From an uncultured Ruminococcus sp. (GTDB lineage Bacteria > Bacillota > Clostridia > Oscillospirales > Acutalibacteraceae), in NCBI GenBank assembly GCA_905235295.1, contig CAJOLF010000004.1:1-46092 (forward strand): a DNA stretch of 46,092 nucleotides. Reading direction: 5' to 3'. A model generated the notes under the pieces. It made no database searches. It had not been told where the DNA came from and worked only from the letters and a program-made list of their open reading frames with translations. Positions 15,739-46,092 of the stretch are shown here, one piece after another. How positions within the stretch are numbered: position 1 is the stretch's first letter; each line of letters starts with the position of its first letter. Position numbers and translations under genes: made by a program.

Positions 15739-15778
15739 TTGCATTGGCAAAACATATAATCGTATTTATATCGACCAC

Positions 15779-15835
15779 AAAAAGTCGGGTAGCAAAAGAA
15801 AAATCCTGATATCATATTATCAGGAGGTAAATATT
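15779..15835 (+). promoter_or_regulatory. Promoter with AraC-type box, copy 2
   Basis: aaaaagtcgg (15779-15788), followed by gtagcAAAAGAAAAAtcc and TGATATCATATTAT, then a strong aggaggt ribosome site. It matches copy 1 at 14867 over most of its length. It is a likely autoregulatory site for the AraC-family protein. Confidence 0.6.
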
Positions 15836-16669: not shown

Positions 16670-16676
16670 TTTATGC

Positions 16677-16712
16677 AATACCGTTCTGAGAAAATCAGGA
16701 CGGTATTTTTTG
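16677..16712 (+). terminator. Rho-independent terminator after the AraC gene
   Basis: aataccgt pairs with acggtatt, extended by tctga/tcagg, and is followed by six T. It ends the AraC transcript before the defence-like operon. Confidence 0.85.
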
Positions 16713-16885
16713 TTTGCGGAATTATATTGAAATGTTCACAAAATTGTATGCGAAATTTTATGATACTTCGACAAATATTGACTAATATTTTCTATATTCA
16801 AGTATATTCAAATGTAAGCTCAAAGATGCTAAAATATTATTGATACTATTAAAATAATTATAAAACCATAAAAGGAGTAGAATTT

Positions 16886-17263: not shown

Positions 17264-17267
17264 TAAA

Positions 17268-18041: not shown

Positions 18042-18055
18042 AAAAGGAAGCAATT

Positions 18056-18607: not shown

Positions 18608-18630
18608 ATGATTTTATTTAAGGTGTACAT

Positions 18631-19188
18631 ATGTTTAGTGAGATTCTATACACAATATTAACTACTACTATTTCATCATCAATTCTTTTGTTAATAAAAT
18701 CCTTTTTTGATAAAAAGGAAAGTAAAGCAGAAGAAAAAGAAATTGAAAACAAATTAAAAACTGTTGAAGAAAGTATAGGTGTTGATGATGATATTGACAT
18801 AATGAAACTTATGTTCAGCAATTTGAAAGAATTGCGTGAATACTATGTAATTAGCAAAAGACAAGCCAACAAAACATTTTCTGCATCCATATTTGTTTGT
18901 TTTTTGGGTGTAGTAATATATTCATTGGGAATAGTATTTACTTGTCTATTAAACCAAGATATTTCTCTTATTTCAATTATTTCAGGAACCACAGTTGAGA
19001 TTATTTCTGCTCTATTCTTTTGGATGTATAGCAAATCAATGAGCCAGTTAAATATTTATCACAAAAGGCTAAGCGAAACAGAAAAATATTTAATCACAAT
19101 TCAACTGGTTGAAAGAATTTCTAAAGAATCATTAGATTCTGAATTGCATTTTATCATTGAATCTATTTTAAAGAATAGCATTAATTAG
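18631..19188 (+). CDS. Membrane effector candidate (TRADD-N-associated 2TM-like)
   Basis: A 185-residue membrane protein. One hydrophobic helix is near residues 5-23, then a charged coiled coil (about 28-78), then a 2TM hairpin (83-106 and 111-133), and a C-terminal helix with LNIYHKRLSETEKYL. The hairpin with GTTVEIISALFFWMYSKSMSQLN closely recalls the membrane domain found with TRADD-N modules (CyanoTRADDas_TM) in bacterial conflict systems. It closes the HORMA/AAA+ operon 23 bases after the HORMA gene, a place where CBASS-like systems carry their killing effector. A role in membrane disruption is inferred. Confidence 0.6.
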   Translation: MFSEILYTILTTTISSSILLLIKSFFDKKESKAEEKEIENKLKTVEESIGVDDDIDIMKLMFSNLKELREYYVISKRQANKTFSASIFVCFLGVVIYSLGIVFTCLLNQDISLISIISGTTVEIISALFFWMYSKSMSQLNIYHKRLSETEKYLITIQLVERISKESLDSELHFIIESILKNSIN

Positions 19189-19189
19189 C

Positions 19190-19222
19190 AAATCGCTTGC
19201 TGAAAAACGGCAAGCGATTTTA
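19190..19222 (+). terminator. Terminator of the HORMA/AAA+ operon
   Basis: aaatcgcttgc pairs perfectly with gcaagcgattt and ends in a short T-run, two bases after the effector stop. It separates this operon from the kinase-helicase operon. Confidence 0.88.
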
Positions 19223-19239
19223 ACTATTATTGTAATCAA

Positions 19240-19268
19240 TTGAATTTGGTTGAAAAATGCTATATAAT
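19240..19268 (+). promoter_or_regulatory. Promoter of the kinase-helicase operon
   Basis: TTGAAT (19240-19245), a 17-base spacer and perfect TATAAT (19263-19268) lie 32 bases before the start codon. Confidence 0.75.
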
Positions 19269-19300
19269 TATAATATAAGGATAGAAAGGACGGTAGAATT

Positions 19301-22300
19301 ATGGCTGATTATAAGGATTTAGTACGGGTAAGATGTCTCAGTGGTCGTAGTGATACAAACTCTAAAGTAGATTTGCTTCAAGAAAAAGATACAGAGAACT
19401 TTTTTGTAAGGAAAACTATTTATGGTATTTCACAGCCATTATACCAAGCGATTTTTTCCAGAGAAGTAAGAGCTCTACAAGTGTTAAACTCATGTAATAA
19501 TATTGTAAAAATAATTTCATTTGAGAATATGAAAGTCACTAAAACCGAAGAAAAAGTCGGTTGTATTTTTCTGGAGTATATTTTTGGTGATACCTTAAGT
19601 AACGTAAATGTTGAAGAATTATCTTCAAAAGATAAGTTTTCTATTATTAATCAAATACTAAACGCAATTGAATTTGCCCATTCAAACGGTATTGTTCACA
19701 GGGATATTAATCCCAGTAATATCATGCTCACTGATGATAATGTAGTAAAAATTATTGATTTTGGAATTTGCAAGATCAAGGGTATGCTCAATTCAGCAAC
19801 AACTTTTCAGATGGCTACCAATCGTTATTCAGCACCTGAGGTTCACACTCACAGCGAGAATGCAACGGAACAGAGTGATTTATATTCTGTAGGTGCTATT
19901 ATTTTCTATCTTTTTACAGGACAAACTCCTCCATTGCCAGAAGAGTTTAGTAATACCATTGACAAAGTTTCAGGAATTGATATTGAGCTTAAACCAATAA
20001 TAAAAAAGCTTGTCAATTATAGTCCGACAGAAAGATATTCGGATATCTTTTCTGTTCGTTCGGATCTTAACAGACTATTAACAAGATTTTTATCAACAGA
20101 CTACTATATCAACATAGTGATGGACTTTGAAAAGTTCCGTGTGCTTAAGAACAGGCATCTTATTCCTAGTGATGCACAGATATCGGAACTCAACAGCTAT
20201 ATCAAGCAGAATTACTACGAAGTACACGCATACAAAGACGACAAAAATAATTACAAGCTTTTAGGACTAAACTACATCTTAGTATGTATTTATGATAAAA
20301 GCATTAATATGTTCAAAGTTGTAGATATTACCAAGATTGTGCCTTACGAGCGAGAGCGTTTCAAAAATTTCTATTGTGCGATTAGCGCTTTTGTAAATGC
20401 TGTTAATCCAAGATTTGTTCATCGAACAAGGAATAACAGCAATCTGGAAATAAAAAATATAATTGATGATTATTACAACGAATATACTTCAAAAAGAAAT
20501 ATTGATGCTGAATACAATAGTAAGTATGGAACATGGAGAGAACTTTTAGAACTCACTCAAAAAAGCATAAATGATAATATTGTGAGATTAAAATATGACT
20601 CATATAGTGAAAAGAATGGCATCCTCTCTTTTATACTGAGTTCAAAAGTTTTCCTGCCGGAAAAAGACTTTGATAAAGAACAAACTTTTGTATTTGAAAA
20701 GAAAATAAATCGTCAAACTAAACCAATAATGATAGGCTACTACGAAAGTGATGCATATGTAAATGATCATGTTGTGTTAAGAATTCGCAGAGAACAGTAC
20801 ATGGAAAAGCTTCCGAAAGCAGGGGCTATCTGTTTAGATTATAGGAAAGAGTTAATGAATGTTCAAAGACAATTGGATGCGATTTACAAGTTGGAAAAAG
20901 AAGATTATTACTGTGCGTTCCCCCTCAAAGAAATAATCACAGGAGTAGAAGCTCCTTCTTCAATCGAGTTAAGTAGAGAAATAAAATACTTTAATGAACA
21001 ACTTGATGTATCTCAAAGAGCAGCTGTAAGGAAAGCGCTTAATTCGAATTCTTTATGTATAATTCAAGGACCTCCGGGAACAGGAAAAACAAATGTCGTA
21101 ATAGAGATTATACGTCAAATTCTTAAAGCAAATAAAAGAAATACTGATATTCCTGAAAAGAAAGTGCTGTTGGTATCTCAATCGCATCCTGCAGTGGATA
21201 AAATGTTGGAAGATCTTAATGAACAAACAAATGGAACCCCCAGCTTAATTAGAATTGGACGAGATGAAAAACTAAATCAACAAATACTTGAGAAATATGG
21301 AATTAATCATGTAAAAGAAAGGTGGATATCTGATATCAGAAGTAAATGTCGCCAATACTCCTTACCTATTCTTGCTCAGTTGGGAATAAGTGAAAATGAG
21401 TTTGAGACATATTATAAGCAAATTGAAGAGCAGCGTATTGACGGCGTGAAAAAAGAAGAAATTAATCATTCCATTATTGAAAGTACCATTGCAAAAACAT
21501 CATCGCCTACAAAAGAAAAAATGAGAAAAATATTAGAGATTCAATCTCTTTGGAAAAACCAGATTTCTCAATGCGACGAGATGGAATTGTATTTAATAAA
21601 AAGTACAACTATCATCGCAGGCACTTGTACTGGCTTTATTTCAAATAGAATAATTCGTGATGTATATTATGATTATCTAATTATAGACGAAGCAGCAAAA
21701 GCAACTTTTCCTGAATTGGCTGTATCATTTAATAAAGCAGGGAAAATAATTCTAGTAGGTGATCACAAGCAGTTACCTCCGGTATTAGATACAGATATAA
21801 TAAGGCAAAATAAAGATAAACTCAATACCCAGAATCTTTATGAGGGCCTTTTTGAAAAGCTGTACGAAATGTTTCCTAAAGAAAGTAAGCACAGGCTAAC
21901 TATTCAATATAGGATGCACCCGACAATAGGCTCCTTGATTAGCCAGATATTCTATGAAAACGAGATTCAAAATGGAATCCCAAAAGAAAAAAGAATAATT
22001 GGTATTGAAAAATATGATAATATCGCCATTGAATGGATCAGCACATCTTCAAAGCCTGAAAATCAGCGTAAAGAAACAAGAGTAGGACGGTATCCTGAAT
22101 ACACATTTAAGAATAATTTAGAAATCAACTTGATTAAGAATAAATTGATTGAATTGGATACGTTATCTTCTGGAAAGATACAAGTTGCAGTTATTACTGC
22201 TTATAGTGCACAAAAATATGCTTTAAGCAATATGATTAAACAACATAAGTTTAATCATATTGTTGTGGAAGTTGATACTGTAGATGCTTTTCAAGGAAGT

Positions 22301-22528
22301 CAAAAGGAAATAATAATATACTCTACCGTAAGAAGCAACAAAAAAACTACTATTGGATTTTTAAAATCTGAAGCCAGACTGAATGTAGCTTTTTCCCGAG
22401 CTAAATCTTTGTTGATTATTGTGGGAGATCATATGTTTTTAAATAATCGTAAAATAGGAAACAATAGATTCCCCGAAATAATCGATTATATCAACAAAAC
22501 AGATGACTGTATCATTACGGAGGTGTAA
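19301..22528 (+). CDS. Ser/Thr protein kinase-SF1 (UPF1/DNA2-like) helicase fusion, type I Mokosh MkoA-like
   Basis: A 1075-residue fusion. The N-terminal kinase (about 20-265) has K38, E55, HRDINPSN at 133-140, DFG at 153-155 and APE at 178-180. Oddly the catalytic-loop lysine of HRDxKxxN is N. A middle region (about 270-560) is not recognised. The C-terminal SF1 helicase of the COG1112 kind carries GPPGTGKT at 590-597, DEAA at 796-799, GDHKQLPP, QYRMHP at 869-874, the DAFQGSQKE motif and FSRAKS near 1031. A kinase-helicase fusion beside a second gene is, as I recall, the layout of type I Mokosh anti-phage defence. The next gene starts six bases after its stop. Confidence 0.85.
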   Translation: MADYKDLVRVRCLSGRSDTNSKVDLLQEKDTENFFVRKTIYGISQPLYQAIFSREVRALQVLNSCNNIVKIISFENMKVTKTEEKVGCIFLEYIFGDTLSNVNVEELSSKDKFSIINQILNAIEFAHSNGIVHRDINPSNIMLTDDNVVKIIDFGICKIKGMLNSATTFQMATNRYSAPEVHTHSENATEQSDLYSVGAIIFYLFTGQTPPLPEEFSNTIDKVSGIDIELKPIIKKLVNYSPTERYSDIFSVRSDLNRLLTRFLSTDYYINIVMDFEKFRVLKNRHLIPSDAQISELNSYIKQNYYEVHAYKDDKNNYKLLGLNYILVCIYDKSINMFKVVDITKIVPYERERFKNFYCAISAFVNAVNPRFVHRTRNNSNLEIKNIIDDYYNEYTSKRNIDAEYNSKYGTWRELLELTQKSINDNIVRLKYDSYSEKNGILSFILSSKVFLPEKDFDKEQTFVFEKKINRQTKPIMIGYYESDAYVNDHVVLRIRREQYMEKLPKAGAICLDYRKELMNVQRQLDAIYKLEKEDYYCAFPLKEIITGVEAPSSIELSREIKYFNEQLDVSQRAAVRKALNSNSLCIIQGPPGTGKTNVVIEIIRQILKANKRNTDIPEKKVLLVSQSHPAVDKMLEDLNEQTNGTPSLIRIGRDEKLNQQILEKYGINHVKERWISDIRSKCRQYSLPILAQLGISENEFETYYKQIEEQRIDGVKKEEINHSIIESTIAKTSSPTKEKMRKILEIQSLWKNQISQCDEMELYLIKSTTIIAGTCTGFISNRIIRDVYYDYLIIDEAAKATFPELAVSFNKAGKIILVGDHKQLPPVLDTDIIRQNKDKLNTQNLYEGLFEKLYEMFPKESKHRLTIQYRMHPTIGSLISQIFYENEIQNGIPKEKRIIGIEKYDNIAIEWISTSSKPENQRKETRVGRYPEYTFKNNLEINLIKNKLIELDTLSSGKIQVAVITAYSAQKYALSNMIKQHKFNHIVVEVDTVDAFQGSQKEIIIYSTVRSNKKTTIGFLKSEARLNVAFSRAKSLLIIVGDHMFLNNRKIGNNRFPEIIDYINKTDDCIITEV

Positions 22529-22534
22529 TTTAAG

Positions 22535-23950
22535 ATGTCAAAACTAATCAAAACCATATTATCAAAATGTCCGCCGGAAATGCCTGACTTCATTTGTATT
22601 AAATCCACAGACATTTTCTTTCCTTATATGGAAATAGGAATAGATTGTTTAGTTAGAGATATATCTGAACTCAGTTTAGTGTTTGAGGTCGTTTTAAGCC
22701 TAACTGAAATGAACGTGTGCGATATCAATGATATTTGTAGTATTTTGGGGTTGTCATTTGATATCGTAAAAGAGGTCGTTGTTGACTTGGTTTCATTAGA
22801 TTATGTTACTGCATCTGAAGCGAGTATTCGAATTACCGAAAAAGGTAAACAGGCGTTAAAGTCAAAACAATCGATTCAGATAAAAAAATATAACTTGAAT
22901 AATGTTGCTGTAGATTTGATTACTGGAAGAATATTTGATGTGGATTCTGTTTCATCTGAATCTGTATCTAAACAAAGTATTTGCCTTGAAGGAAATATCT
23001 CTATTGATTTAACCTATCTGGAAAGGAATATACAGGATATAAAGTCACTTTTCGAAGAACAGCAAAGATCACTTAATGAACAATATCGAAAATCAACAAA
23101 AGAGCTTTATCGAATGATTAGCATTCATCATCAGAAATTAAAGTATATAAAAAAGAAACTATATATATATAAATCGATTAACTCTGAGGATTTGCAATTT
23201 TATCTTGATAACGAAACTGAAGGCGCTTATCATGATGCTATGTATGAACAATTGAAAGGACAATTAGCTCCCAGCCTTGAACGCTTTTTTGAAAGCGATA
23301 GAGAATTCAAGAAGAAAGCAGGAAATTTCTCATTTGATTCCAAGAAATATAGCAAAATGGTAGAATTAAAAAGGGTGTTAAGTTCTCAAACAGAATCAAC
23401 TCTTGTTTTAGATGCCGACTTTTTTTGTGGAAAGCGGTATTCCTTTTTCGATAATGAGTACTTGTATTATTTTGAAAACGACAAAGAGATTAATTATAAA
23501 CAACTAATCATCTATTCAAATAGAATTAACAGTATATTAAACCGATCTATTTATGAGGAAATAAAGCGTATATCAGAAAACAAACCTGTTTTTATTATTT
23601 ATGATAAAAATGAGTATAATGCAGAAGGTTCTATTGATTATTTTATTCCAAAAGACAAGAGAAAGAATATTCATATCATTGAATCTTCCGATATTAGTCA
23701 ATCTATCATCTGCTTTAGCGACAGCCTTATGATTGATTTAGAAGAGTACACATTGTCAACGCTTAATGGAATTATAAGCTTTAAAATACCTACAATCAGT
23801 TTTGATTCAAAAGAAATATCTAATCTGATTTCTACATTAAAAAGAAAAACAGATTTTCAAAAATACTTATCACATGATAATAAGCGCTCAACAACAAAGC
23901 CAGATAAAGTGAACTATAGACAATACTATAAAAATGAAGGACGAAGGTGA
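22535..23950 (+). CDS. Partner of the kinase-helicase; winged helix plus possible degenerate PLD-like domain
   Basis: A 471-residue protein. Residues about 45-115 look like a winged helix (VCDINDICSILGLSFDIVKEVV, then ITEKGKQAL). A coiled coil follows at about 160-210. The last third (about 325-430: LIIYSNRINSIL, then KPVFIIYDKNEY, then IHIIESSDISQSIICFSDSLMI) has the beta-alpha rhythm of a phospholipase-D-type nuclease half, but SQS stands where HxK is expected. In type I Mokosh the partner MkoB is a PLD nuclease; this may be a degenerate or divergent one. Its ribosome site ggaggt lies in the helicase gene end. The stop falls in a perfect hairpin just before an IS200-type element. Confidence 0.6.
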   Translation: MSKLIKTILSKCPPEMPDFICIKSTDIFFPYMEIGIDCLVRDISELSLVFEVVLSLTEMNVCDINDICSILGLSFDIVKEVVVDLVSLDYVTASEASIRITEKGKQALKSKQSIQIKKYNLNNVAVDLITGRIFDVDSVSSESVSKQSICLEGNISIDLTYLERNIQDIKSLFEEQQRSLNEQYRKSTKELYRMISIHHQKLKYIKKKLYIYKSINSEDLQFYLDNETEGAYHDAMYEQLKGQLAPSLERFFESDREFKKKAGNFSFDSKKYSKMVELKRVLSSQTESTLVLDADFFCGKRYSFFDNEYLYYFENDKEINYKQLIIYSNRINSILNRSIYEEIKRISENKPVFIIYDKNEYNAEGSIDYFIPKDKRKNIHIIESSDISQSIICFSDSLMIDLEEYTLSTLNGIISFKIPTISFDSKEISNLISTLKRKTDFQKYLSHDNKRSTTKPDKVNYRQYYKNEGRR

Positions 23951-23967
23951 TTCGCTTCACCTTCGTC
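23940..23967 (+). other. Perfect hairpin containing the stop codon of the helicase partner gene
   Basis: gacgaaggtga (23940-23950) pairs with its complement ending at 23967 around a five-base loop. No T-run follows. It may protect the transcript 3' end, or be part of the adjacent insertion sequence's target. Confidence 0.5.
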
Positions 23968-24112
23968 GCCTTGGTGTCCTTTAGGGCGTGAAAGACAACC
24001 CCCAGTTCAACTGGGGGCAAATAAAAAACTTTAGTAAAATAAAACCTCCGAGTATAATGGTAAGTGTTTGACAGACGCATTACCAAAGAAATACAAGGAG
24101 GTTTCACACGAA

Positions 24113-24592
24113 GTGAAAAAAGATATAAGAAACGAAATAAAAAGTTTAGCCCATTCAAAATATAGATGTCAGTATCATATAGTCTTTGCGCCAAAATACA
24201 GACGAAAAGAAATATATGGAACGTTGCGAAAAGATATAGTAGAGATAATAAGGAAATTGTGTGAGCAAAAGAATGTGGAAATAATAGAAGCAGAAGCATG
24301 CAAAGACCACATACATATGCTGGTGAGTATCCCGCCGCATCTAAGTGTATCACAATTTATGGGTTATCTCAAGGGAAAAAGTAGCCTAATGATATTCGAC
24401 AGGCACGCGAATCTGAAATACAAGTATGGTTCAAGGCACTTCTGGGCAAGAGGATATTATGTCGATACAGTAGGACGAAACAAAAAGGTGATAGCCGAAT
24501 ACACAAGGAATCAGTTAGAGGAAGATTACGCAACGGATCAACTATCGCTAAAAGAATTTACAGACCCGTTTACGGGTAGCAAGAATAAGTAA
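24113..24592 (+). CDS. tnpA: IS200/IS605-family Y1 transposase TnpA
   Basis: A 159-residue HUH single-strand transposase. CQYHIVFAPKYRRK is the typical N-terminal strand, HIHML (about 63-67) is the HUH metal site, and GYYVDTVG (about 116-123) contains the catalytic tyrosine. GTG at 24113 is preferred to an upstream TTG because aaggaggt lies ten bases before it. A cagccgc/gcggctg hairpin follows the gene at 24605-24624. Confidence 0.92.
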   Translation: MKKDIRNEIKSLAHSKYRCQYHIVFAPKYRRKEIYGTLRKDIVEIIRKLCEQKNVEIIEAEACKDHIHMLVSIPPHLSVSQFMGYLKGKSSLMIFDRHANLKYKYGSRHFWARGYYVDTVGRNKKVIAEYTRNQLEEDYATDQLSLKEFTDPFTGSKNK

Positions 24593-36636: not shown

Positions 36637-36684
36637 TTTTAAAAGGATTTAACGCGAAAACAATAAAATTTTTAAGATTTTTCG

Positions 36685-36716
36685 AAAAATTGCTCTTTAA
36701 AGGGCAATTTTTTTAT
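36685..36716 (+). terminator. Hairpin terminator or attenuator before the phage operon
   Basis: aaattgc and gcaattt pair around ctctttaaagg and are followed by seven T. It lies only about 30 bases before the terminase small-subunit start, so it may attenuate the phage operon from a promoter within 36637-36680, or simply insulate it. Confidence 0.65.
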
Positions 36717-36744
36717 TTTAAACACGTATAGGTGAAGGGAAGCT

Positions 36745-37251
36745 TTGGAAAAACCAAATCCCTTTACGGAGGTGGAATTTATTGAAAGCAAGTTAAAAGG
36801 AAAGGAAAAGGAGTTTTGCGTGTGCTTTGCCGAGACGGGTGACGCCGAGCTTTCGGCGAGGCTCGCGGGTTTTAGCAACAATCCCGCTTCAAAGGGAATG
36901 AAGCTGCTCGCGCGCGACGATATTCTCAACGAGATTGAGAGACTTATCGGCAAGCGGAAAAAAATCGCGAAGCTCCTTGCGTTCGCGGGCTATTGCCGCC
37001 TTGCGTTCGGCGATACCGCCGACGCGGTGTCCTTGCTTTTTGACAAAAATCCTGCCGACGCCGACCTGAGCGCTTTGGATTTGTTTATGATTTCCGAGAT
37101 TAAAAAGCCTAAGGACGGCTCGGTGGAGATTAAGTTTTTCGACCGCTTAAAGGCGCTTGAAAAGCTCGAAAATCTGAGCGGAGAAAACACCGCAGACAAT
37201 CTTTTTGACGCAATCGGCGGCGTCTGCGGCGGAAGTGGTCGGGATGATTGA
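36745..37251 (+). CDS. Phage terminase small subunit
   Basis: A 168-residue DNA-recognition subunit of the packaging motor. The N-terminal part (KEKEFCVCFAETGDAELSARLAGFS, then a second helix pair) is the helix-turn-helix typical of TerS, followed by a helical oligomerisation region. TTG at 36745 follows aggtgaaggga. It overlaps the large subunit by eight bases, the standard TerS-TerL order. It opens the structural operon. Confidence 0.8.
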   Translation: MEKPNPFTEVEFIESKLKGKEKEFCVCFAETGDAELSARLAGFSNNPASKGMKLLARDDILNEIERLIGKRKKIAKLLAFAGYCRLAFGDTADAVSLLFDKNPADADLSALDLFMISEIKKPKDGSVEIKFFDRLKALEKLENLSGENTADNLFDAIGGVCGGSGRDD

Positions 37252-38488
37252 AAAATTTTCAAGGAAACAGCGCACAGTGATGAGCTGGTGGCACGAGAAC
37301 TCCCCGTACTCCAATCGCGACGCGATAATCTGCGACGGCGCGGTAAGAAGCGGAAAAACCTTTTGTATGTCGCTGTCGTTCATCATTTGGAGCTTTTACC
37401 GAAAAAGCGAAGCGGACTTTGCCCTCTGCGGAAAAACCATCAGCTCCCTGCGGAGAAATATGGTTACTCCGATTATTCCCCTTTTGAACTCCCTTGGCTT
37501 TGTATGTGAGGAAAAGCTCAGCCGCAACACTTTGATTGTGAGCTACGGCGGCGTGAAAAACAGGTTCTACCTGTTCGGCGGCAAGGACGAGTCATCCGCG
37601 GCGCTGATTCAGGGTATGACGCTTTCGGGCGTGCTGTTTGACGAGGTGGCGCTGATGCCGCGTTCGTTTGTTGAGCAGGCGTTGGCAAGGTGCTCGGTTT
37701 CGGGCTCGCGCTTTTGGTTCAACTGCAATCCCGAGCATCCCGAGCACTGGTTCTACCTTGAATGGATTAAAAAGGCAAAAAGCAAAAACGCCCTTCACCT
37801 GCACTTTACAATGGACGACAATCCCGCGCTGAGTGAGCGCGTAAAGCGCAGATATGAAAAGCTGTACTCGGGCGTGTTTTACGAAAGGTTCGTCAAGGGC
37901 AACTGGGTTGCCGTGTTCGGCGCGGTTTATCCCTTTATGAGCGATGAAAAAATGTATTGTGATGTGCCGTCGGGCGATTTTGAAGGCTACGCCGTGTCCT
38001 GCGACTACGGTACGGTCAACCCGACCTCAATGGGGCTCTGGGGCAGATTTGAGGGAGCTTGGTACAGAATTGACGAATACTATTTTGATTCGCGTCAGGA
38101 GGGCTTCCAAAAAACCGACGAGGAGCATTACCGCGCGTTGCAAAGGCTGACAGCCGGACGCAAGGTTGACGCGGTCGCGGTTGACCCTTCGGCGGCAAGC
38201 TTTATTGAGGTTATCAAACGGCACGGCGAGTACAGCGTTAAACCCGCGCAAAACAATGTTGTTAACGGAATACGGCGTGTTACTCAGGCGCTGAAGGACG
38301 GCAGCATAAGGATTTGTAACACCTGCGCGGCTTCAAAGCGCGAGTTCGCTTTGTATAAATGGGACAGCTCAAAGCGGGACGACGTTCCCGTAAAGCAAAA
38401 CGACCACGCGATGGATGACATCAGGTATTTTGTTACAACGATTATGGACGGCGGCACAAAAACCCTTGCGTTTGCCGCCGAAAGATAG
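37244..38488 (+). CDS. Phage terminase large subunit
   Basis: A 414-residue packaging ATPase/nuclease. The Walker-A-like GAVRSGKT is at 33-40, the Walker B region at VLFDEVALM (about 134-142), and the C-terminal RNase H-like nuclease acidic positions appear in SCDYGT, VAVDPSAAS and HAMDDIRY. ATG at 37244 follows ggaag and overlaps the small-subunit stop; an upstream alternative would overlap much more. It is full length for this family. Confidence 0.92.
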   Translation: MIEKFSRKQRTVMSWWHENSPYSNRDAIICDGAVRSGKTFCMSLSFIIWSFYRKSEADFALCGKTISSLRRNMVTPIIPLLNSLGFVCEEKLSRNTLIVSYGGVKNRFYLFGGKDESSAALIQGMTLSGVLFDEVALMPRSFVEQALARCSVSGSRFWFNCNPEHPEHWFYLEWIKKAKSKNALHLHFTMDDNPALSERVKRRYEKLYSGVFYERFVKGNWVAVFGAVYPFMSDEKMYCDVPSGDFEGYAVSCDYGTVNPTSMGLWGRFEGAWYRIDEYYFDSRQEGFQKTDEEHYRALQRLTAGRKVDAVAVDPSAASFIEVIKRHGEYSVKPAQNNVVNGIRRVTQALKDGSIRICNTCAASKREFALYKWDSSKRDDVPVKQNDHAMDDIRYFVTTIMDGGTKTLAFAAER

Positions 38489-38498
38489 GAGGAAACCA

Positions 38499-39644
38499 GT
38501 GTTTGGAAGAAAAAAGCATAGCGCGGCGGGGTTCGGCGCGCAGACGGTTCCAAAGCCGAAAACAAGCGGAAATTATCTGAGCTTTATCGGCGACTGCTCG
38601 CTCGGCAAGGCGGAGAGGGATTTGTATTCGTCCCTGCGCGAGTCGGTTCCGATTATTGACGCGGCAATCGGCAAAATTGTGCGGCTTACCGGCTGCTTCA
38701 GCATAGTTACGGAGGACGGCAAGGCGCAGAAAACCGCCGACGATTTTGTGAAAAACGTGAGAGTGAACAGCACCGACATCGGACTGATGAGCTTTGTAAG
38801 CCGTTACCTTGACAGCCTGCTGACCTACGGCGAAGCTGTGGGAGAGATGATTCCCGACAGCTCGGGCAGAGAAATCGCGGCGCTTTACAACGCGTCGTTG
38901 GACGACGTGGAGCTGTCAATCGACAAAAATCCAATGGATATTATCGTCAGCAGCAGAAGAGACGGCGTGCCTGTTCCTGTGGATTACCCTCAGCTTGTTG
39001 TAGCGGGGCTGCTCGACCAGAAGCCCGGCAAGGCAAGGGGAACCTCGGTTTTGAGCGGTCTGCCGTTTGTCAGCTCGGTTTTGCTCAGAATTTTGGAATC
39101 GGTAAAAACCAACTGGGAGCGGGTCGGCGACGTCCGTTTCGCGGTTACGTACAACCCCGGGGATAACGGCGTTTTTACCGAGGAAAACGCGCGCCAAATT
39201 GCCGACGAGTGGAAAAAGGCGATGCGCGGCGACAGCGTTTGCGACTTTGTTTCGCTCGGCGACGTCAGCGTAAAGGTTATAGGAGCTGAAAACCGTATGC
39301 CCGACTGCGAGATTCCCGTCAGGGTGATATTGGAGCAGATTGTCGCAAAGCTCGGTATTCCGCCGTTTTTGCTCGGGCTTTCGTGGTCGAGCACAGAGCG
39401 TATGAGCGCTCAGCAGGCGGATATTCTAACGAGCGAGCTGGAGTATTACCGCGCGGCGGCAGAGCCCGCAATCAAAAAGATTGTCGGTACTCACCTAAGG
39501 CTTTCGGGCTACAACTGCGGCTTTGACGTTGTATGGGAAAGCATCAATCTGCAGGACGAGGTTGAGCTGTCACAGGCAAGGCTCAACAACGCCAACGCTA
39601 TGCGGATTGAAAGAGAATCGGGTTTGGAGGAATTGAATGGATAA
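38499..39644 (+). CDS. Phage portal protein
   Basis: A 381-residue portal subunit, the dodecameric DNA gate at the capsid vertex. SLRESVPIIDAAIGKIVRL, the long stem-type helix region, and the segment GIPPFLLGLSW...SAQQADILTSELEYYR are characteristic of clostridial portal proteins. GTG at 38499 follows taggagg. It begins ten bases after the terminase stop and overlaps the protease start by eight bases. Confidence 0.88.
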   Translation: MFGRKKHSAAGFGAQTVPKPKTSGNYLSFIGDCSLGKAERDLYSSLRESVPIIDAAIGKIVRLTGCFSIVTEDGKAQKTADDFVKNVRVNSTDIGLMSFVSRYLDSLLTYGEAVGEMIPDSSGREIAALYNASLDDVELSIDKNPMDIIVSSRRDGVPVPVDYPQLVVAGLLDQKPGKARGTSVLSGLPFVSSVLLRILESVKTNWERVGDVRFAVTYNPGDNGVFTEENARQIADEWKKAMRGDSVCDFVSLGDVSVKVIGAENRMPDCEIPVRVILEQIVAKLGIPPFLLGLSWSSTERMSAQQADILTSELEYYRAAAEPAIKKIVGTHLRLSGYNCGFDVVWESINLQDEVELSQARLNNANAMRIERESGLEELNG

Positions 39645-40614
39645 TCGCAAAACCAAGTCCTCGGCGGCGGAAATCGGCGGAGACTCCCGCCGTCCTTCCG
39701 ACGAGGAGCTAAAGCTGATTAACGGCTATACAAGACGCGAGTTTTCGGCTGACGAGGTGTATGTGTTCTCGGTCGTTTTGTGCGACAACGACGTTGACCG
39801 CGACGGCGAGCGCTTTACGGTGGAGGCGCTGTTTGAGCTTGAAAAGCTCTTTGTGGGCAAGACGGGAATTTTTGACCACAACCCCACCGCGAAGAACCAG
39901 ACGGCAAGGATTTTTGCCTGCTCGGTAGAGAGCGTTCCCGGCAAAAAGACCGCCACGGGCGACGAATATTTTTGCCTGAAGGCGAGGGCGTATATACCAG
40001 TCAATGACGATAACGCGTCGGTTATATCCGCGATAGAAAGCGGAATTATCAAGGAAGTAAGCGTGGGCTGCGCGGTAAAGGGCGCGGTTTGCAGTATTTG
40101 CGGAGAGAGGTTTGACCTTTGTCCGCACAAAAAAGGCGAGGTCTACTCGGGCAAGCTTTGCTGCGCCGAGCTGACAGAGCCGTACGACGCTTACGAATGG
40201 AGCTTTGTCGCCGTTCCCGCCCAAAGACAGGCGGGCGTGACAAAGTCTTTGAACAGAAAGGAAGTTACAATGGAAGAAATCTTAAAAAGTCTTGAAAGCG
40301 CAAATGGCGTTACCCTCGGCGAGCGCGACTGCGAAAAGCTGAATGAGTACATCAATAACCTAAAGCTCAGCGCGAAGGACGGCGTTTATTACCGCGACAG
40401 CCTGACCTCGGAGGTTCTGAGGCTTTCGGCTTCGGCTGAGCCCGCAATTTCAAGAGAAACAATGGAGTGTATCGCGAAAACGCTGACGGTAGCCCAGCTT
40501 AACGAGCTTAAAAACGCTTTTGAAAAGAAGCTCGGCGAGAGCGTTTTGCCCAAGCCGCAGCTTTTCGGCGGACAAAACAAGCAGAACACAGACAACAGAC
40601 AGTTCAGTATTTAA
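39637..40614 (+). CDS. Prohead protease-scaffold fusion
   Basis: A 325-residue protein. The N-terminal half is an HK97-type serine protease with likely catalytic H81 (IFDHNP) and S142 (KEVSVGC). Four metal-like positions, C152, C155, C162 and H164 (CSIC...CPH), form a small zinc-knuckle-like insert known in this protease group. The C-terminal part after about residue 205 is helical and acts as the scaffold for capsid assembly. ATG at 39637 lies within the portal end after ggagg. Confidence 0.8.
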   Translation: MDNRKTKSSAAEIGGDSRRPSDEELKLINGYTRREFSADEVYVFSVVLCDNDVDRDGERFTVEALFELEKLFVGKTGIFDHNPTAKNQTARIFACSVESVPGKKTATGDEYFCLKARAYIPVNDDNASVISAIESGIIKEVSVGCAVKGAVCSICGERFDLCPHKKGEVYSGKLCCAELTEPYDAYEWSFVAVPAQRQAGVTKSLNRKEVTMEEILKSLESANGVTLGERDCEKLNEYINNLKLSAKDGVYYRDSLTSEVLRLSASAEPAISRETMECIAKTLTVAQLNELKNAFEKKLGESVLPKPQLFGGQNKQNTDNRQFSI

Positions 40615-40629
40615 TTTGGAGGTATAAGT

Positions 40630-40965
40630 ATGAATGTAAATTTTAAGGGCTACGGAGAAAACGTAGTCACCTTTATCGCTGACAGCAGCATTACATCAGC
40701 GGGCGTTCCCGTAAAAATCAGCGACGAAGGAACAGTGGCAAAGTGCGGCGCCAACGACACCTTTTGCGGCGTTTGCGTAAATGTTCGCGGAGGCTACGCG
40801 GCGGTTCAGCTTTCGGGATATGTTGTGGTCACCACAACGGGTAAGCTGAACCTCGGCTACACTAAGGTCGCGGTTAACTCCGCAGGCAGGGTTTCCGCAA
40901 ACGAAAACGGCAGAGAGGTGCTTGTTGTTAACTCAACATCCAACGAAGCCGGAATTATTCTTTAA
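40630..40965 (+). CDS. Capsid decoration-like protein (DUF2190 type)
   Basis: A 111-residue beta-rich protein with the pattern of DUF2190/decoration proteins: an early VTFIADSSITSAG, then GVCVNVRGGYAAVQLSGYVVV and a closing NEAGIIL. It sits between protease and major capsid gene, the usual place for a head-stabilising protein. A strong ggaggt precedes the ATG. Confidence 0.7.
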   Translation: MNVNFKGYGENVVTFIADSSITSAGVPVKISDEGTVAKCGANDTFCGVCVNVRGGYAAVQLSGYVVVTTTGKLNLGYTKVAVNSAGRVSANENGREVLVVNSTSNEAGIIL

Positions 40966-40981
40966 TCATCAGGAGGTAAAA

Positions 40982-41986
40982 ATGGCTAATTACGAAAACA
41001 TTACAATCGAAAAAGGTATGTACCAGACCAAGGGCGGTCTTTCCGGGGCGCTCGAAAAGCTCGACCCTTCGGAAAACTACGCAGGAACCTCGCTTGAGGG
41101 GCTCGACGCGTTTTCAAGACAGCTCAAGCGCTATAACATCAAGGTGAACGGCAGCTCAAGCGACTGCGTTGAAAAGTTCTTCCAAACCTCAAATTCGGCG
41201 GCGCTGTTCCCCGAATATGTAAGCCGCGCGGTAGCTCAGGGTATGGAAAGGGCAAATATCCTGCCTTACATTGTGGCTACCGTTACCGATATTGAGGGTA
41301 TGGATTACAGGAGCATCGCCTCAACCCCCGCCGATGACGACAAGGAGTTAAAGATTGTCGGCGAGGGTGCGTACATTCCCCAGACGTCAGTCAAGACGCG
41401 CGAGAACCTTGTTAAGCTTCACAAGCGCGGAAGAATGCTTGTCGCTTCCTACGAGGCTCTGCGTTTTCAACGCCTTGACCTTTTCACCGTGACTCTTAAC
41501 CAAATCGGCGCGTATATCGCGCGCTCTCAGCTCAAGGACGCGATTGACGTGCTGATCAACGGCGACGGCAACAACAACGCCGCGGAGAACGTGAGCACGG
41601 CGACCTCGGGCGCAATCACCTACGACGACCTTGTAAAGCTCTGGGCGAATATGGCTCCCTACGAGCTGAACACAGTCCTCGCGCCTACCGCCGAGATGCA
41701 GAAAATCCTCGCTCTGCCCCAGATGCAGGACGCGAACGCCGGTCTTGATTTTCAGGGCACTGGAAAAATGGTTACTCCCTTGGGCGCGTCGCTTCTTCAC
41801 GCTCCCGAGATGCAGAGCGGAAAGATTATCGGTCTTGACAAAAACTGCGCGCTCGAGATGGTTCAGGCAGGCGGCGTAGTCACCGACTACGACAAGCTGA
41901 TTGACCGCCAGCTCGAGAGAGCCGCGATTACCTGCACGGCAGGATTCTCTAAAATCTTTACGGAAGCCGCAAAGACGCTTTCTTAA
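40982..41986 (+). CDS. Major capsid protein, HK97 fold
   Basis: A 334-residue coat protein. The N-terminal region would be removed or ordered during assembly, and the segments RENLVKLHKRGRMLVASYEALRFQRLDLF and the P-domain-like DDLVKLWANMAPYELNTVLAP fit clostridial HK97-type capsids. ATG at 40982 has a perfect aggaggt. Protease-decoration-capsid order supports the call. Confidence 0.85.
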   Translation: MANYENITIEKGMYQTKGGLSGALEKLDPSENYAGTSLEGLDAFSRQLKRYNIKVNGSSSDCVEKFFQTSNSAALFPEYVSRAVAQGMERANILPYIVATVTDIEGMDYRSIASTPADDDKELKIVGEGAYIPQTSVKTRENLVKLHKRGRMLVASYEALRFQRLDLFTVTLNQIGAYIARSQLKDAIDVLINGDGNNNAAENVSTATSGAITYDDLVKLWANMAPYELNTVLAPTAEMQKILALPQMQDANAGLDFQGTGKMVTPLGASLLHAPEMQSGKIIGLDKNCALEMVQAGGVVTDYDKLIDRQLERAAITCTAGFSKIFTEAAKTLS

Positions 41987-41998
41987 CGGGGTGATTGT

Positions 41999-42352
41999 TT
42001 GAACATTGCTAATGTTACGGCAAAGTTCGCGGCGTTTTCGGGGGTTGACGGCGACGAGCTGTTCAGGCAGAGCGCGCTGATTGACAGCGCGGTTAATTAT
42101 ATTGAGCGCCGCGCGAAAACCGAAAACCCAACAAGCGAGCAAACGGACAGGCTGGAGCTTTTGAGCGCGGCTTACGCATACAAGCTGTACGATTTCTGCA
42201 ATGACGCTGACATCACTTCCTTTACCGCGGGCGACGTTTCAATTTCGTCGCCCGGCGGCGGCAAGGGCGGAGGCGAAAAGCTTTGGCAGGAGATGCTCAG
42301 GGCAAACGCCGATTTGATAAGCGGCGACGAATTTATTTTCGGCAGGATGTGA
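41999..42352 (+). CDS. Head-tail connector (adaptor) protein
   Basis: A 117-residue helical protein directly behind the capsid gene, the position of gp6/gp15-like adaptors. It shows paired helices with DSAVNYIERRAK and LELLSAAYAYKLYDF. TTG at 41999 follows ggggtgat. Only position and helical pattern support the role. Confidence 0.65.
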   Translation: MNIANVTAKFAAFSGVDGDELFRQSALIDSAVNYIERRAKTENPTSEQTDRLELLSAAYAYKLYDFCNDADITSFTAGDVSISSPGGGKGGGEKLWQEMLRANADLISGDEFIFGRM

Positions 42353-42356
42353 GCAA

Positions 42357-42713
42357 GTGAGATTGATTGACTCTGTCGCTGTCGCGGTTCAAAAATACGG
42401 CGACAGCATAAAAATTATTAACGGAGAGCTTGTTACCCTTACGCGGGCGTTTATTGAACCGCTGAGGTACAAAAACAAAATTTACATCGGCGGAAGAAAG
42501 CATACGCTCGGTAATTATAATAATGAAAAGTACCTCTGCATTGCCAAGCCCTCGGACAAGCTGGTTGAGGACGAAAGTGTAATAGAATGCGGCGATGATA
42601 AATATATTGTAAAAAGGTGCGAAACCTACCGCGTCAGCGATATTCCGGTTTACGTTTGGGCGATTCTCAGCCGGTACAACGAGCGAATGGAGGATGAATA
42701 TGACGCAGATTAA
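42357..42713 (+). CDS. Head-closure (stopper)-like protein
   Basis: A 118-residue beta-rich protein with GRKHTLGNYNNEKYLCIAKP and YIVKRCETYRVSDIPVYVWAIL. It occupies the stopper position after the adaptor. GTG at 42357 starts four bases after the previous stop. It overlaps the next gene. The role is inferred from gene order. Confidence 0.6.
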   Translation: MRLIDSVAVAVQKYGDSIKIINGELVTLTRAFIEPLRYKNKIYIGGRKHTLGNYNNEKYLCIAKPSDKLVEDESVIECGDDKYIVKRCETYRVSDIPVYVWAILSRYNERMEDEYDAD

Positions 42714-43140
42714 GCAGAAAATTGACGCCGTTGTCAAAAACCTCAAGGCTGTGCCGGAGTTTTCAAAGGTTCGCTTTGTGCGCGAATATACCGATAAATT
42801 TACCGAAACGCCGATCAGCGGATTTTTGGCGGCGGTGTGCGTAAAGAGCACCGAGCTTTGCGAAACCTACCTGGGCGGCTTGATTATGCCGCGGAAAAAG
42901 GGAAAAATGTACCGCGCTGTGGCGGAAATCAGGGTTTACGCGCCGAAAAATCAAAACGGAAGCGGACTTTCCGAGCTTGTGGGAGAAATGATGTACAGGC
43001 TTGAGGACGCCGACGAGGAAAATATTATTACAGGCGCGAAGGCAGGAGCGATTGAGTTTGACGAAAACGTCAGCGCGGTTTTCCGCAGGCTTACGTTTAC
43101 AGTGGAGTTTTTTGAAGGCGGGGAGGAGCAAAATGGATGA
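42700..43140 (+). CDS. Tail completion/terminator-like protein
   Basis: A 146-residue alpha/beta protein in the tail-terminator position after the stopper. Features include an N-terminal helix, the strand YRAVAEIRVYAPKNQNGSG and the closing RLTFTVEFFEG. ATG at 42700 is preferred to one six bases upstream because the ggagg site needs the spacing. It overlaps the flanking genes by 14 and 8 bases. Confidence 0.6.
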   Translation: MTQIKQKIDAVVKNLKAVPEFSKVRFVREYTDKFTETPISGFLAAVCVKSTELCETYLGGLIMPRKKGKMYRAVAEIRVYAPKNQNGSGLSELVGEMMYRLEDADEENIITGAKAGAIEFDENVSAVFRRLTFTVEFFEGGEEQNG

Positions 43141-43501
43141 TTTTGGATTTCTTCGCGGAAATGAGATTACCGTAAAAATCAACGGAAACGAGGTCGGCGG
43201 AGTGATTTCCGCCGTTTGCAAAACCGAGAACAATCTGATTAGGATTAAGGAGTTCTTGACGGACAAGCCCGTTTTTTCGGTTGAGGCTCCGAAATATACA
43301 ATCGAGCTGAAAACCCGCCGAAGCCCTGATGAAATTTTGGGCGGACAGGCTGTGAGCAGCGTTGAGCTTGCCGGAGGAGGAAAAACGGTTGAGTACACCT
43401 CCTGCTCGGTCGCGAAAACAAACGCGGCGGTTTTGCCTGAGAATATTGTTGAATACAGCGTTGTTATCAGCGCGGACATAAGGAGTGTTGAAAATGACTG
43501 A
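43133..43501 (+). CDS. Unknown beta-rich tail protein, possible tail tube
   Basis: A 122-residue protein not firmly recognised. Opening strands EITVKINGNEVGGVISAV, then PKYTIELKTRR and VEYSVVISADI, suggest a small beta-sandwich like tail-tube proteins, and it stands where a tube gene may lie. It starts at ATG 43133 after ggagg, overlapping the previous stop by eight bases. If it is not the tube, the operon shows no tube gene within the window. Confidence 0.5.
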   Translation: MDDFGFLRGNEITVKINGNEVGGVISAVCKTENNLIRIKEFLTDKPVFSVEAPKYTIELKTRRSPDEILGGQAVSSVELAGGGKTVEYTSCSVAKTNAAVLPENIVEYSVVISADIRSVEND

Positions 43502-43631
43502 GGAAAGCTTGGCGTTAATAGCCGACGACAGCGCCGGTATTGATACCGAAAGCCTCAGCGAGCTGCTTGAGCTTGAAAGCAGACGCTACAGCCGCAGGCT
43601 CGGAGAGGAAGATGAGGCGAGGCTGAGATGA
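43494..43631 (+). CDS. Small acidic/helical phage protein (45 aa)
   Basis: A 45-residue product, rich in Glu, Leu, Ser and Arg. Its ATG overlaps the preceding stop and its TGA overlaps the next ATG, with aggag upstream, so it is very likely translated. In PBSX-like operons a small helical protein near this point can be a tail chaperone; that is only a suggestion. Confidence 0.6.
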   Translation: MTEESLALIADDSAGIDTESLSELLELESRRYSRRLGEEDEARLR

Positions 43632-44143
43632 AGCTGATACCGATGAGATTTTCCGGCTTTGAGTGGCACCACAACCCGAGGGAAATCAGCTTTGAGTGCG
43701 ACAAAAAGGTAAACGAATTTATCGTTCCGAAAAACACGGCGGAGGTTCAGGATTCCGGCAGGAAAAATATGATTGTCAGGGGCGTCGGCGAGCTGTACGG
43801 CGAGGATTGCCTTGACCAGTTCGCTTCCCTACTCGCGCTGTTCAAAAAGGGCGGTACGGGAGTTCTGTCTATTGAGAACTTCGAGCCGATTTTCGCCGTG
43901 TTTGAAAGCGTAAAGCTGATTGGCGCTCCAAGGGAAAATATCCTGACCTACAGCTTTGTTTTCAGAGAGGTTATGGAGGAAAAGGAGCGCCGGAAAACGG
44001 CGCTTTACACCGCGCAAAACGGCGAGAACCTGTGGGATATATCGTACAAATTCGGCGTTGTAATCGACGAGCTTGTACGGCTTAATCCGCAGATAAAACG
44101 CCCCGACGTTGTTCCCGATGGAGAGGTGATAAGGCTTGCTTAG
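43628..44143 (+). CDS. LysM-containing tail/baseplate protein (XkdP-like)
   Basis: A 171-residue protein. The N-terminal part (MRFSGFEWHHNPREISFE) resembles phage tail proteins that precede the hub, and the C-terminal 48 residues form a LysM domain (YTAQNGENLWDISYKFG...LVRLNPQI). In PBSX, XkdP with LysM sits between the tape measure and the hub XkdQ. The start overlaps the previous stop (ATGA) and the end overlaps the hub start. Confidence 0.78.
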   Translation: MKLIPMRFSGFEWHHNPREISFECDKKVNEFIVPKNTAEVQDSGRKNMIVRGVGELYGEDCLDQFASLLALFKKGGTGVLSIENFEPIFAVFESVKLIGAPRENILTYSFVFREVMEEKERRKTALYTAQNGENLWDISYKFGVVIDELVRLNPQIKRPDVVPDGEVIRLA

Positions 44144-45071
44144 GTATGAGGTTACGCTGAAAAACGGCGAAAAGCGAAGCAATCTTCGCGCGGTTTCGGC
44201 GGAGTGGAAAAGCGAGCTTGACGTGCCTGCCGACAGCCTTACGCTCAACTGCGTTTATGACGGAGAGATTTTTGAAAACGCCGACAGAATCACCGCTTAC
44301 AACAGAAACGAGCTTGTGTTTGACGGTCAGCTTGACGAGATTATAAGAATCCGCAGGGACAGCGGAATCGCGCTGAAGCTGTGCGCGAGAAGCGCGGCAG
44401 CGGCGCTGCTCGACAACGAGGCGGAGCCGCTCAGCTACCGCAACCCGAGCGTCGCGCTTATGCTCAAAAAGCACCTGCAGCCCTTCGGGATTACCGACGT
44501 TGAGCCGGACGGCGTACCGATTATCGGCGATATGAGGATTGACAAGGGTATGACGCACTGGCAGGTGCTCGAGATGTTCTGCAAAACAAAGTATCGCTCA
44601 AAGCTGAGGATTTCCGGCGGCGGAAAGGTGTTCCTCAGAGGCTTTAAGAATGATAAAAAGGTAAAGTTCGGCAGCGGCGGAATTGAGTATTATTCTATAA
44701 AAGAAAATAAAAGCCGCTGCAAGCTTATCTCCGAGGTTAAGCTCAAGGTCAGCGACACGGGAGGATATTTGTCCTCGCTGAAAAATCCGAACGCGGAGTG
44801 CGGTTTTGTGAAGCGCGTAAGGTATGTCAACGCGGCTGCCGACGACAACAGCCTTAACACCGCCGATGTGATGATTGAGCAGAGCAACCTTGACAGCCAT
44901 TACATCAAGCTTACCTTCGGCGGCTGCGTGACCGATATTCTCGGCGCCGAAGCGGAGCTTGACGACGCTGTTTTCGGCCGGATGAACGGGCTGACGGTGC
45001 GAAAGCTGATTTATTCGCTAAGTCCCTCGGGCGAGCTGACAACGGTTTATTTGGGAAAGGAGAAATACTGA
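44136..45071 (+). CDS. Baseplate hub protein (gpD/XkdQ-like)
   Basis: A 311-residue hub protein. SAEWKSELDVPADSLTLNC, DRITAYNRNELVFDGQLDEI and LKLCARSAAAALLDNEAEP are typical of the XkdQ/late control D fold, in which three copies anchor the spike. TTG at 44136 follows gagaggtg. It overlaps the previous gene by eight bases and shares one base with the next. Confidence 0.8.
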   Translation: MLRYEVTLKNGEKRSNLRAVSAEWKSELDVPADSLTLNCVYDGEIFENADRITAYNRNELVFDGQLDEIIRIRRDSGIALKLCARSAAAALLDNEAEPLSYRNPSVALMLKKHLQPFGITDVEPDGVPIIGDMRIDKGMTHWQVLEMFCKTKYRSKLRISGGGKVFLRGFKNDKKVKFGSGGIEYYSIKENKSRCKLISEVKLKVSDTGGYLSSLKNPNAECGFVKRVRYVNAAADDNSLNTADVMIEQSNLDSHYIKLTFGGCVTDILGAEAELDDAVFGRMNGLTVRKLIYSLSPSGELTTVYLGKEKY

Positions 45072-45394
45072 TGTGGCTGATGAGTTATATCACAAAAAAT
45101 TCCCTTGAACCGCCAAACGCGGTCAAGGGTAATGTTTATGAAAAGGGCACGGCGGTTACCGCCTCGGGCGAGCACAAAAGCCTGCGCGCCTGTATGCCGT
45201 ACGGAATCGCGAGTATTCCGCCGAAAAACGAGTGCGCGGTTGTACTGCCGCTCGACGACGGCGAGGTGTCGCTCGGTGTGCTTGCCGATACCGAGGGGCT
45301 GCAGGAGGGCGAGCTTATGCTCCGCTCAAGCGGCGGCGCTGAAATCGTGCTCAAAAATAACGGCACTGTGCTGATAAACGGCAGGGAGTTCTGA
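45071..45394 (+). CDS. Short baseplate spike-like protein (gpV/XkdR-type)
   Basis: A 107-residue protein with an OB-like region (ACMPYGIASIPPKNECAVVLPLDDG) and a closing beta repeat (ELMLRSSGGAEIVLKNNGTVLING), the usual end of phage spike proteins of the gpV/gp45 group. It is short for that family. It starts in ATG overlapping the hub stop, after aaaggag. Its place between hub and gp25-like gene fits. Confidence 0.7.
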   Translation: MWLMSYITKNSLEPPNAVKGNVYEKGTAVTASGEHKSLRACMPYGIASIPPKNECAVVLPLDDGEVSLGVLADTEGLQEGELMLRSSGGAEIVLKNNGTVLINGREF

Positions 45395-45735
45395 TGCTGA
45401 CAGATATTTTGATTGCTGACAGGGACGTTGCCGTTGACAGCGCGGGAAGGATGATTCGCCTGAGCGATATTGACGCGAGGTTTCAGCGCGCGTTTATCAC
45501 GGCGATGACCGAGAAGGGAAGCTTTATCTACGACAGGGGGCTCGGCTGCGAGTATTCCTATGACAGCGGCGATGAATTTTCCCTGAGGAAGGTCGAGCTG
45601 AGTATCAACGAAGCCCTCGCGCGGTTCGGAGATACGTCCGCTCAGGTTGAAAATATAGGAGAAAAATTAAGGCTGAAAATCACAATTAACGGACAAAGCA
45701 AAACAGAGGAGGTGCGCGTGATTGGAAACGTATGA
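45394..45735 (+). CDS. Baseplate wedge protein (gp25/XkdS-like)
   Basis: A 113-residue protein of the gp25-like lysozyme-related wedge family, shown by LIADRDVAVDSAG, FITAMTEKGSFIYDRGLGCEY, and RKVELSINEALARF with a closing KLRLKITINGQ strand. It overlaps the spike gene by one base. The next gene starts inside its end. Confidence 0.78.
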   Translation: MLTDILIADRDVAVDSAGRMIRLSDIDARFQRAFITAMTEKGSFIYDRGLGCEYSYDSGDEFSLRKVELSINEALARFGDTSAQVENIGEKLRLKITINGQSKTEEVRVIGNV

Positions 45736-46092
45736 GGAAATATACGCAAGAATGAAAGAAAAATACGAGCAGGAAAGCGGGTTTGAAATTGACAGCGCCG
45801 GCGACGTGGCAATCAGGCTCAGGGTGCTCGCGGGTGAAATTTATAACGCCCGGTGCAACCTTGAATGGCTAAAGCAGCAGATGTTTGCCGAAACCGCGCG
45901 CGGCGAGTACCTTGACCGCCTTGCCGAGCAAAGGGGACTTTTGAGGAAACCCGCGACAAAGGCTAAGGGGTTTCTGACCTTCAGCGTTGACGAAACGCTG
46001 TTTTACCCGATTGCGATTCCTGCCGGCACTGTTGTCGCCACCAACGGCGAAACCCCGGTCAGGGTGTACACAACCGAAACCTGCGAGCTTCC
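45722..46092 (+). CDS. Baseplate protein J (XkdT-like), partial
   Basis: The first 123 or so residues of a gpJ/XkdT-type baseplate protein, cut by the window end. YEEIYARMKEKYEQESGFEID, AGDVAIRLRVLAGEIYNA and EYLDRLAEQRGLLRKPATKA are the family's N-terminal signature. TTG at 45722 follows aggaggtg and overlaps the wedge gene end. It continues the XkdP-Q-R-S-T order. Confidence 0.85.
   Translation, partial: METYEEIYARMKEKYEQESGFEIDSAGDVAIRLRVLAGEIYNARCNLEWLKQQMFAETARGEYLDRLAEQRGLLRKPATKAKGFLTFSVDETLFYPIAIPAGTVVATNGETPVRVYTTETCEL

Follow-up and report, generated by a model that had tools for sequence, protein, structure and literature searches.

A sheathless phage-derived cassette of the Ruminococcus bromii group as a candidate locus of a gene-transfer-agent-like particle system

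Very few gene transfer agents (GTAs) are known outside the Alphaproteobacteria. Among domesticated phage elements, PBSX of Bacillus subtilis packs host DNA and has a full contractile tail. In Faecalibacterium, FpGTA forms ~40 nm capsids without identifiable tails, which hold 8.4-8.9 kb of host DNA (PMC12946183), and baseplate, fibre, RBP, holin and endolysin genes lie in its second operon (Borodovich et al. 2026, PMC12946183). The same work found GTA-like packaging in a number of Ruminococcaceae, R. callidus with its 4.6 kb fragments among them, and reported it across gut Ruminococcaceae and Oscillospiraceae, but located the operon only in Faecalibacterium (PMC12946183). The literature searched (bioRxiv preprints lay outside it) contained no previous account of a GTA in R. 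bromii. Here we analysed a contig of 46,092 nucleotides in its entirety (the window; G000:C4) from a 142-contig draft genome of the R. bromii group, which we take to be Ruminococcus_E in the Acutalibacteraceae in GTDB terms. The window ends in a phage-gene cassette that, in our judgement, is likely to form locus I of a stub-tailed, multi-locus GTA-like particle system, domesticated in this group and inherited vertically.

The phage genes start at 36745 and continue to 46092, where the contig ends within XkdT. Reading frames and family matches gave the order TerS, TerL, portal, protease, decoration, capsid, three connectors, a beta-rich protein, a 48-aa protein, LysM/XkdP, XkdQ, XkdR, XkdS and XkdT (Table 1), confirming the order from terminase to the XkdT-like gene that had been proposed in the initial annotation. 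The true start of the portal gene is probably later than 38415. The capsid protein shared 67-89% identity with those of 14 other group members. Since the window is a whole contig, the sequence past 46092 was read on another contig of the same genome and in relatives. The rest of XkdT was found at the end of contig C137, followed by XkdU and then by a dockerin-type surface protein of the host. When the two halves were aligned to XkdT of G095, the window covered residues 1-121 and C137 residues 148-350 (70% identity), leaving ~26 residues in the assembly gap; because the gene is split across both contigs, C4 and C137 would adjoin in the chromosome. The whole cassette measures ~10.6 kb and closes after XkdU, with host genes next. 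The same ending was seen in G095 and in two complete genomes, G001 and G006 (FMBCY1). Across 45 loci or genomes its length was constant (10.3-10.9 kb) and its order unchanged, and no replication or integration genes were found in it, as is expected of the gene content of a GTA. One short fibre-like gene lay 3' of XkdU in 47 of the 88 group genomes read; none was found there in the R. bromii clade proper, so that host binding in that clade would rest on unlinked loci.

Table 1. Features of the cassette and its upstream element, in window coordinates
Feature	Coordinates	Strand	Evidence
Promoter-like element	36684..36740	+	palindrome, T-run, 19 nt, TATAGGTGA; shared with group loci
Terminase small subunit TerS	36745..37251	+	PF03592 5.9e-10
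Terminase large subunit TerL	37205..38488	+	PF03237 2.3e-17, PF17289 1.7e-5
Portal protein	38415..39644	+	PF04860 3.7e-4, below cut-off; slot and family conserved in relatives
Head maturation protease-like	39637..40614	+	position and conservation; no Pfam match
Head decoration-like	40630..40965	+	position and conservation
Major capsid protein	40982..41986	+	PF25209 2.3e-17
Connector 1, head-tail adaptor-like	41999..42352	+	phrog_132 E 0.022 only; conserved slot
Connector 2	42357..42713	+	conserved slot; no family match
Connector 3, tail terminator fold	42694..43140	+	AlphaFold2 pLDDT 85.6; Foldseek
Tail tube-fold (beta-rich) protein	43133..43501	+	AlphaFold2 pLDDT 89.8; Foldseek
48-aa protein in tape-measure slot	43485..43631	+	conserved peptide, translationally coupled to XkdP
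XkdP-like LysM hub protein	43628..44143	+	PF01476 1e-6; phrog_184 baseplate hub 4.8e-6
XkdQ-like baseplate hub	44136..45071	+	phrog_177 1.4e-13
XkdR-like short spike	45071..45394	+	phrog_25991 3.7e-10; PF06890 0.004
XkdS-like (gp25 / sheath-initiator family)	45394..45735	+	PF10934 0.0015, below cut-off; phrog_120 0.014
XkdT baseplate wedge (Baseplate_J)	45722..46092, cut by contig end	+	PF04865 6.8e-10

The composition of the cassette (GC 0.51-0.54) had been said to match the host, which held for the DNA next to it (upstream 0.51-0.52) and failed for a low-GC island (0.32-0.38) at ~8-24 kb, so that the match is limited to adjacent host DNA. The island (7657-24592) ends in a large serine recombinase (PF07508) on one side and, judged by sequence, an IS200-like transposase ORF on the other, and is probably a mobile element holding defence genes. 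Within it, a kinase-helicase fusion (1075 aa) and a 471-aa partner at 19301-23950 make up a Mokosh-type anti-phage system (PADLOC; MkoA 1e-178 to 1e-183, MkoB 3e-32).

To characterize the tail, structural models of two small proteins were compared using Foldseek. Connector 3 matched lambda gpU best (2.3e-6) and also the pyocin R2 collar, and the beta-rich protein matched the neck-tail junction of phage 812 (1.6e-8) and chain 6tba_50 of the RcGTA virion (2.4e-5). Judged by its modelled fold, the beta-rich protein, initially listed as unknown, is the tail tube, suggesting that the tail was stripped and is not absent. In relatives, 12 distinct sequences, a number that does not count independent events, had terminator and tube fused in one open reading frame. 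We lean towards a single tube ring in the particle, since fusion to the terminator would leave room for one ring, provided that the terminator forms a hexamer like that of lambda. The 48-residue protein that follows ends on the start codon of XkdP. Peptides of 39-75 aa with the C-terminal motif LExxSRRYSR..EEEEA occupied this slot in nearly all group members; a chance frame was ruled out by this conservation and by the coupling to XkdP. The motif core (SRRYSR..EEEEA) also terminates 160-230-residue proteins of sheath-bearing relatives. It was absent from the tape measures of phages D6E and PVJ1, so that the link to a tape measure is drawn from position and from the Oscillospirales relatives. 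As a rule of thumb, each tape-measure residue accounts for ~0.15 nm of tail, by which 48 residues would suit at most about two tube rings.

The initial annotation had seen no sheath or tape measure up to 46092 and had suggested a short-tailed derivative, and both statements stood when more sequence was read. No sheath or full-length tape measure was found in the C137 continuation, in either of two complete relatives or in any further cassette of the group that was read. A profile made from the cassette's own sheath relatives detected no sheath in 88 group genomes, two single-contig ones included, or in 13 family members tested alongside positive genomes, and it matched 10 positive-control genomes at E 1e-43 or better. 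We found that the same cassette in two other Oscillospirales families has a sheath between the terminator gene and XkdP (in G782, PF17482 4e-13 and PF04984 3e-10), and that this slot also holds a homologue of the beta-rich tube protein, chaperone-like ORFs and a low-complexity protein of 160-230 residues. Since those families have a sheath and none was found in this one, the sheath appears to have disappeared within this family's lineage or earlier; loss would be the direction, and not gain, because phage relatives such as D6E carry one. Shorter cassettes, from TerS to capsid with one or two connectors and an XkdQ-like gene, were seen in another family (L233 in G865, L234 in G576 and L235 in G695). 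Spike and wedge genes were not detected in them, and the one in G865 retains the palindromic promoter element.

We then examined how the cassette is inherited. XkdQ was present in 148 of 161 R. bromii group genomes (78 of 81 among the good ones), almost always once, and no XkdQ match had an internal stop. The capsid profile matched 236 of 397 genomes and 76 of 122 genera of the family, 101 of 395 genomes across the order and 133 of 297 in one other family, nearly always as a single copy. Median dN/dS values lay between 0.10 and 0.19 for each of 16 genes tested (4 to 157 pairs per gene, dS below 1.5, the pairs not being independent), indicating purifying selection and no decay. When eight cassette proteins were concatenated for 28 genomes, the resulting tree had 19 of 25 splits in common with the rpoB tree, whereas label shuffles gave a mean of 0.21 and a maximum of 3, and the two sets of distances were correlated (Mantel r 0.93). 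The chromosomal site recurred in many genomes; its flanks are conserved host genes, among them mfd (21 loci), pth (13), ppdk (9), prs (9), spoVAF/gerA-like genes (18) and spmAB (8-10), these names being assigned by sequence recognition. No integrase was found beside the cassette in the flanks read. The cassette is therefore inherited vertically as a fixed chromosomal cluster, as GTAs are. Two checks proposed with the initial annotation, for downstream tail genes or a flanking integrase and for the same cassette at the same site in relatives, came out in favour of its reading, and they support both the short-tailed derivative and the domesticated, GTA-like particle, as read from genes.

Upstream of TerS we found a palindromic element. 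The window carries the variant TTGCTC-N6-GGGCAA (36690-36707), with TATAGGTGA 19 nt on (36727-36735). In 42 group genomes TTGCAT-N6-ATGCAA lay 5' of TerS, and in most of these TATAGGTGA or a near variant followed 18-19 nt on. In its spacing the element resembles a -35/-10 promoter whose -35 region is covered by the palindrome. It was also present in three relatives of another family and in weak form in one more, and no such form was seen 5' of the cassettes of several other relatives. Genome scans allowing one mismatch gave 1-21 strand matches per genome, many sites being scored on both strands, and 0-1 for the reversed pattern. At unlinked sites, 36 of the 40 places read could be oriented towards a following gene, and the 18-19 nt spacing was seen in 62 of 78 sites in total. 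LexA, sporulation and sigma-70 patterns were not enriched in the upstream regions scanned, and no sporulation-sigma signal backed the sporulation control that the neighbours spmAB and spoVAF-like had brought to mind.

The genes after the element were mostly phage-type, a classification made partly by eye. They included collagen-repeat fibres (one with a GDSL esterase), BppU-like proteins, XhlA-like and holin genes with endolysins (GH25, CHAP, amidase) and DUF6291/DnaD-like genes of helicase-loader type, several of which stand alone among host genes. The last were seen at L387, L388, L392, L396, L398, L400, L401, L404, L408 and L412 and may perhaps serve local replication before packaging. In G017, uvrA is followed by a fibre gene, a 170-aa protein, an XhlA-like gene, an r1t-type holin and a CHAP endolysin, and element-led genes adjoin uvrA in G003, G028 and G130 too. 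In the genome of the window itself, the element at C77:9654 lies 5' of a fibre-like protein of >620 residues that is cut by the contig end (phrog_7158 5.5e-18). Lysis genes were seen in some genomes only, and a PF05105 holin, sought as a universal component, was patchily distributed. One match (L397) lay inside a prophage. At L411:266-1383 (G130:C7), a broken tyrosine-recombinase-like gene beside an XhlA/amidase lysis locus is possibly a relic of the original integration, or else an unrelated element. An element-led gene at L381:2389-2985 (G017:C9) joins a Mu-F minor-head motif to a barnase-like ribonuclease domain (PF00545 3.9e-13) and is a possible toxin cargo.

We propose that the ancestor was a contractile-tailed phage from which sheath and chaperone genes disappeared and whose tape-measure slot shrank to a ~48-residue peptide. 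Through the dedicated promoter type, locus I would be switched on along with the unlinked genes for fibres, holin/endolysin and helicase-loader-like proteins. The head would be built by capsid, protease and decoration proteins, and TerS, TerL and portal would fill it by headful packaging with DNA, most likely that of the host. The three connectors, a hexameric terminator among them, would hold roughly a single ring of tube protein. The LysM hub, XkdQ, the short spike and the wedge proteins would attach straight to this ring, so that the particle would have a stub tail and a baseplate and would not contract. The producing cell would be lysed by holin and endolysin, and kin would be bound by fibres encoded in either locus II or the cassette. 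Several observations count against a GTA-like reading: the sheath-initiator-like XkdS is kept without a sheath, the holin is patchy and lysis genes occur in some genomes only, L411 has its broken integrase-like gene and L397 lies in a prophage, the promoter form is missing 5' of several relatives' cassettes, and the R. bromii clade proper has no fibre gene after XkdU.

The strongest alternative is a PBSX-like killer, in which a domesticated head-and-baseplate particle packs some DNA and acts as a bacteriocin against kin without gene transfer. The retained baseplate, spike and LysM hub, fibre genes that differ strongly between species and the Mu-F/ribonuclease gene, which suggests cargo toxins in some species, would all suit it, and the same possibility was left open for FpGTA by its authors (PMC12946183). 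However, the packaging genes are all under strong purifying selection and are not obviously needed without DNA delivery. Moreover, the PBSX tail is fully contractile, whereas here both the sheath and a tape measure of full length are missing. We thus consider a killer rather unlikely, and somewhat favour a particle that delivers DNA over one that only kills kin. An ordinary defective prophage, or a capsid-forming phage satellite using the tail of a helper, would explain why all genes are of phage type and why fibre and lysis genes are outside the cassette, and satellites can be without tail genes. We regard this as very improbable, because the cassette is a single copy in nearly the whole genus at a fixed chromosomal site, is congruent with rpoB and shows neither decay nor an integrase in the flanks read. 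Furthermore, its IMG/VR relatives are mostly ~10 kb pieces that correspond to the cassette alone, and in one longer contig host glycolysis genes adjoin it. An ordinary prophage was rejected on the evidence of the flanks, the single copy and the tree, neither an integrase nor variable presence having been found. Close matches in the phage collection were unannotated scaffolds from human faecal samples. A 70.9 kb IMG/VR contig (L294) has a capsid homologue (48% identity) with DNA methylase, RtcB-like and glycosylase genes and is perhaps a true phage relative. That sheath and tape measure are encoded elsewhere, so that dispersed loci would give an ordinary contractile particle, fits a multi-locus system but is equally improbable, as the sheath profile found none in the 88 genus genomes while detecting its 10 controls and the tape-measure slot is still occupied by a conserved small peptide; a PBSX-type contractile particle was rejected on the same two observations. 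The system is thus probably no virus but a particle for gene transfer, and it appears GTA-like in anatomy, inheritance and regulation.

More broadly, and with only slight preference for the claim as a whole, these data point to an order-wide GTA lineage in which a contractile tail was cut stepwise to one tube ring, through sheath loss, terminator-tube fusion and a ~48-aa peptide in the tape-measure slot, with the baseplate almost directly on the head and a dispersed regulon, including fibre, lysis and helicase-loader-like genes, under one dedicated promoter type. The cassette and the element-led genes provide candidates for an operon, a promoter and accessory loci in a species that is a keystone of starch degradation in the human gut, and since culturable strains carry the system, particle production and gene transfer are directly testable. 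It would also provide a rare graded series in which a contractile phage tail is dismantled and its baseplate retained.

Among known systems, the deep-sea thermophilic phage D6E is an intact relative. It shares TerS, TerL (49.5% identity) and the order sheath-tube-TMP-LysM-hub-wedge-fibre-holin-endolysin, but retains the sheath, a 636-aa tape measure whose sequence is without the peptide motif, fibre and lysis genes and an integrase. The xkd operon of PBSX is likewise domesticated and has the same XkdP-Q-R-S-T-U order and domain types, whereas the R. bromii cassette has no sheath, XkdN-type chaperone or XkdO-size tape measure and is the one for which order-wide vertical inheritance was seen. 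RcGTA and other alphaproteobacterial GTAs share vertical inheritance, a compact cluster, unlinked accessory loci and a tube fold (6tba_50); RcGTA is siphovirus-like with a tape measure, while the R. bromii cassette appears to come from a contractile-tailed phage. FpGTA, the nearest known case, whose packaging was shown by experiment where the R. bromii system is known from its genes, has ten ORFs in operon I with an annotated scaffold and keeps its baseplate genes in operon II, in contrast to the whole hub-spike-wedge set in locus I here. The two nevertheless belong to the same bacterial order and have in common a TerS-TerL-portal-capsid operon of ~10 kb that is near-ubiquitous in the genus and free of replication genes, a separate locus with fibre and lysis genes and a particle that looks, or would look, tailless. 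By this analogy, the R. bromii system is best read as related in kind to FpGTA.
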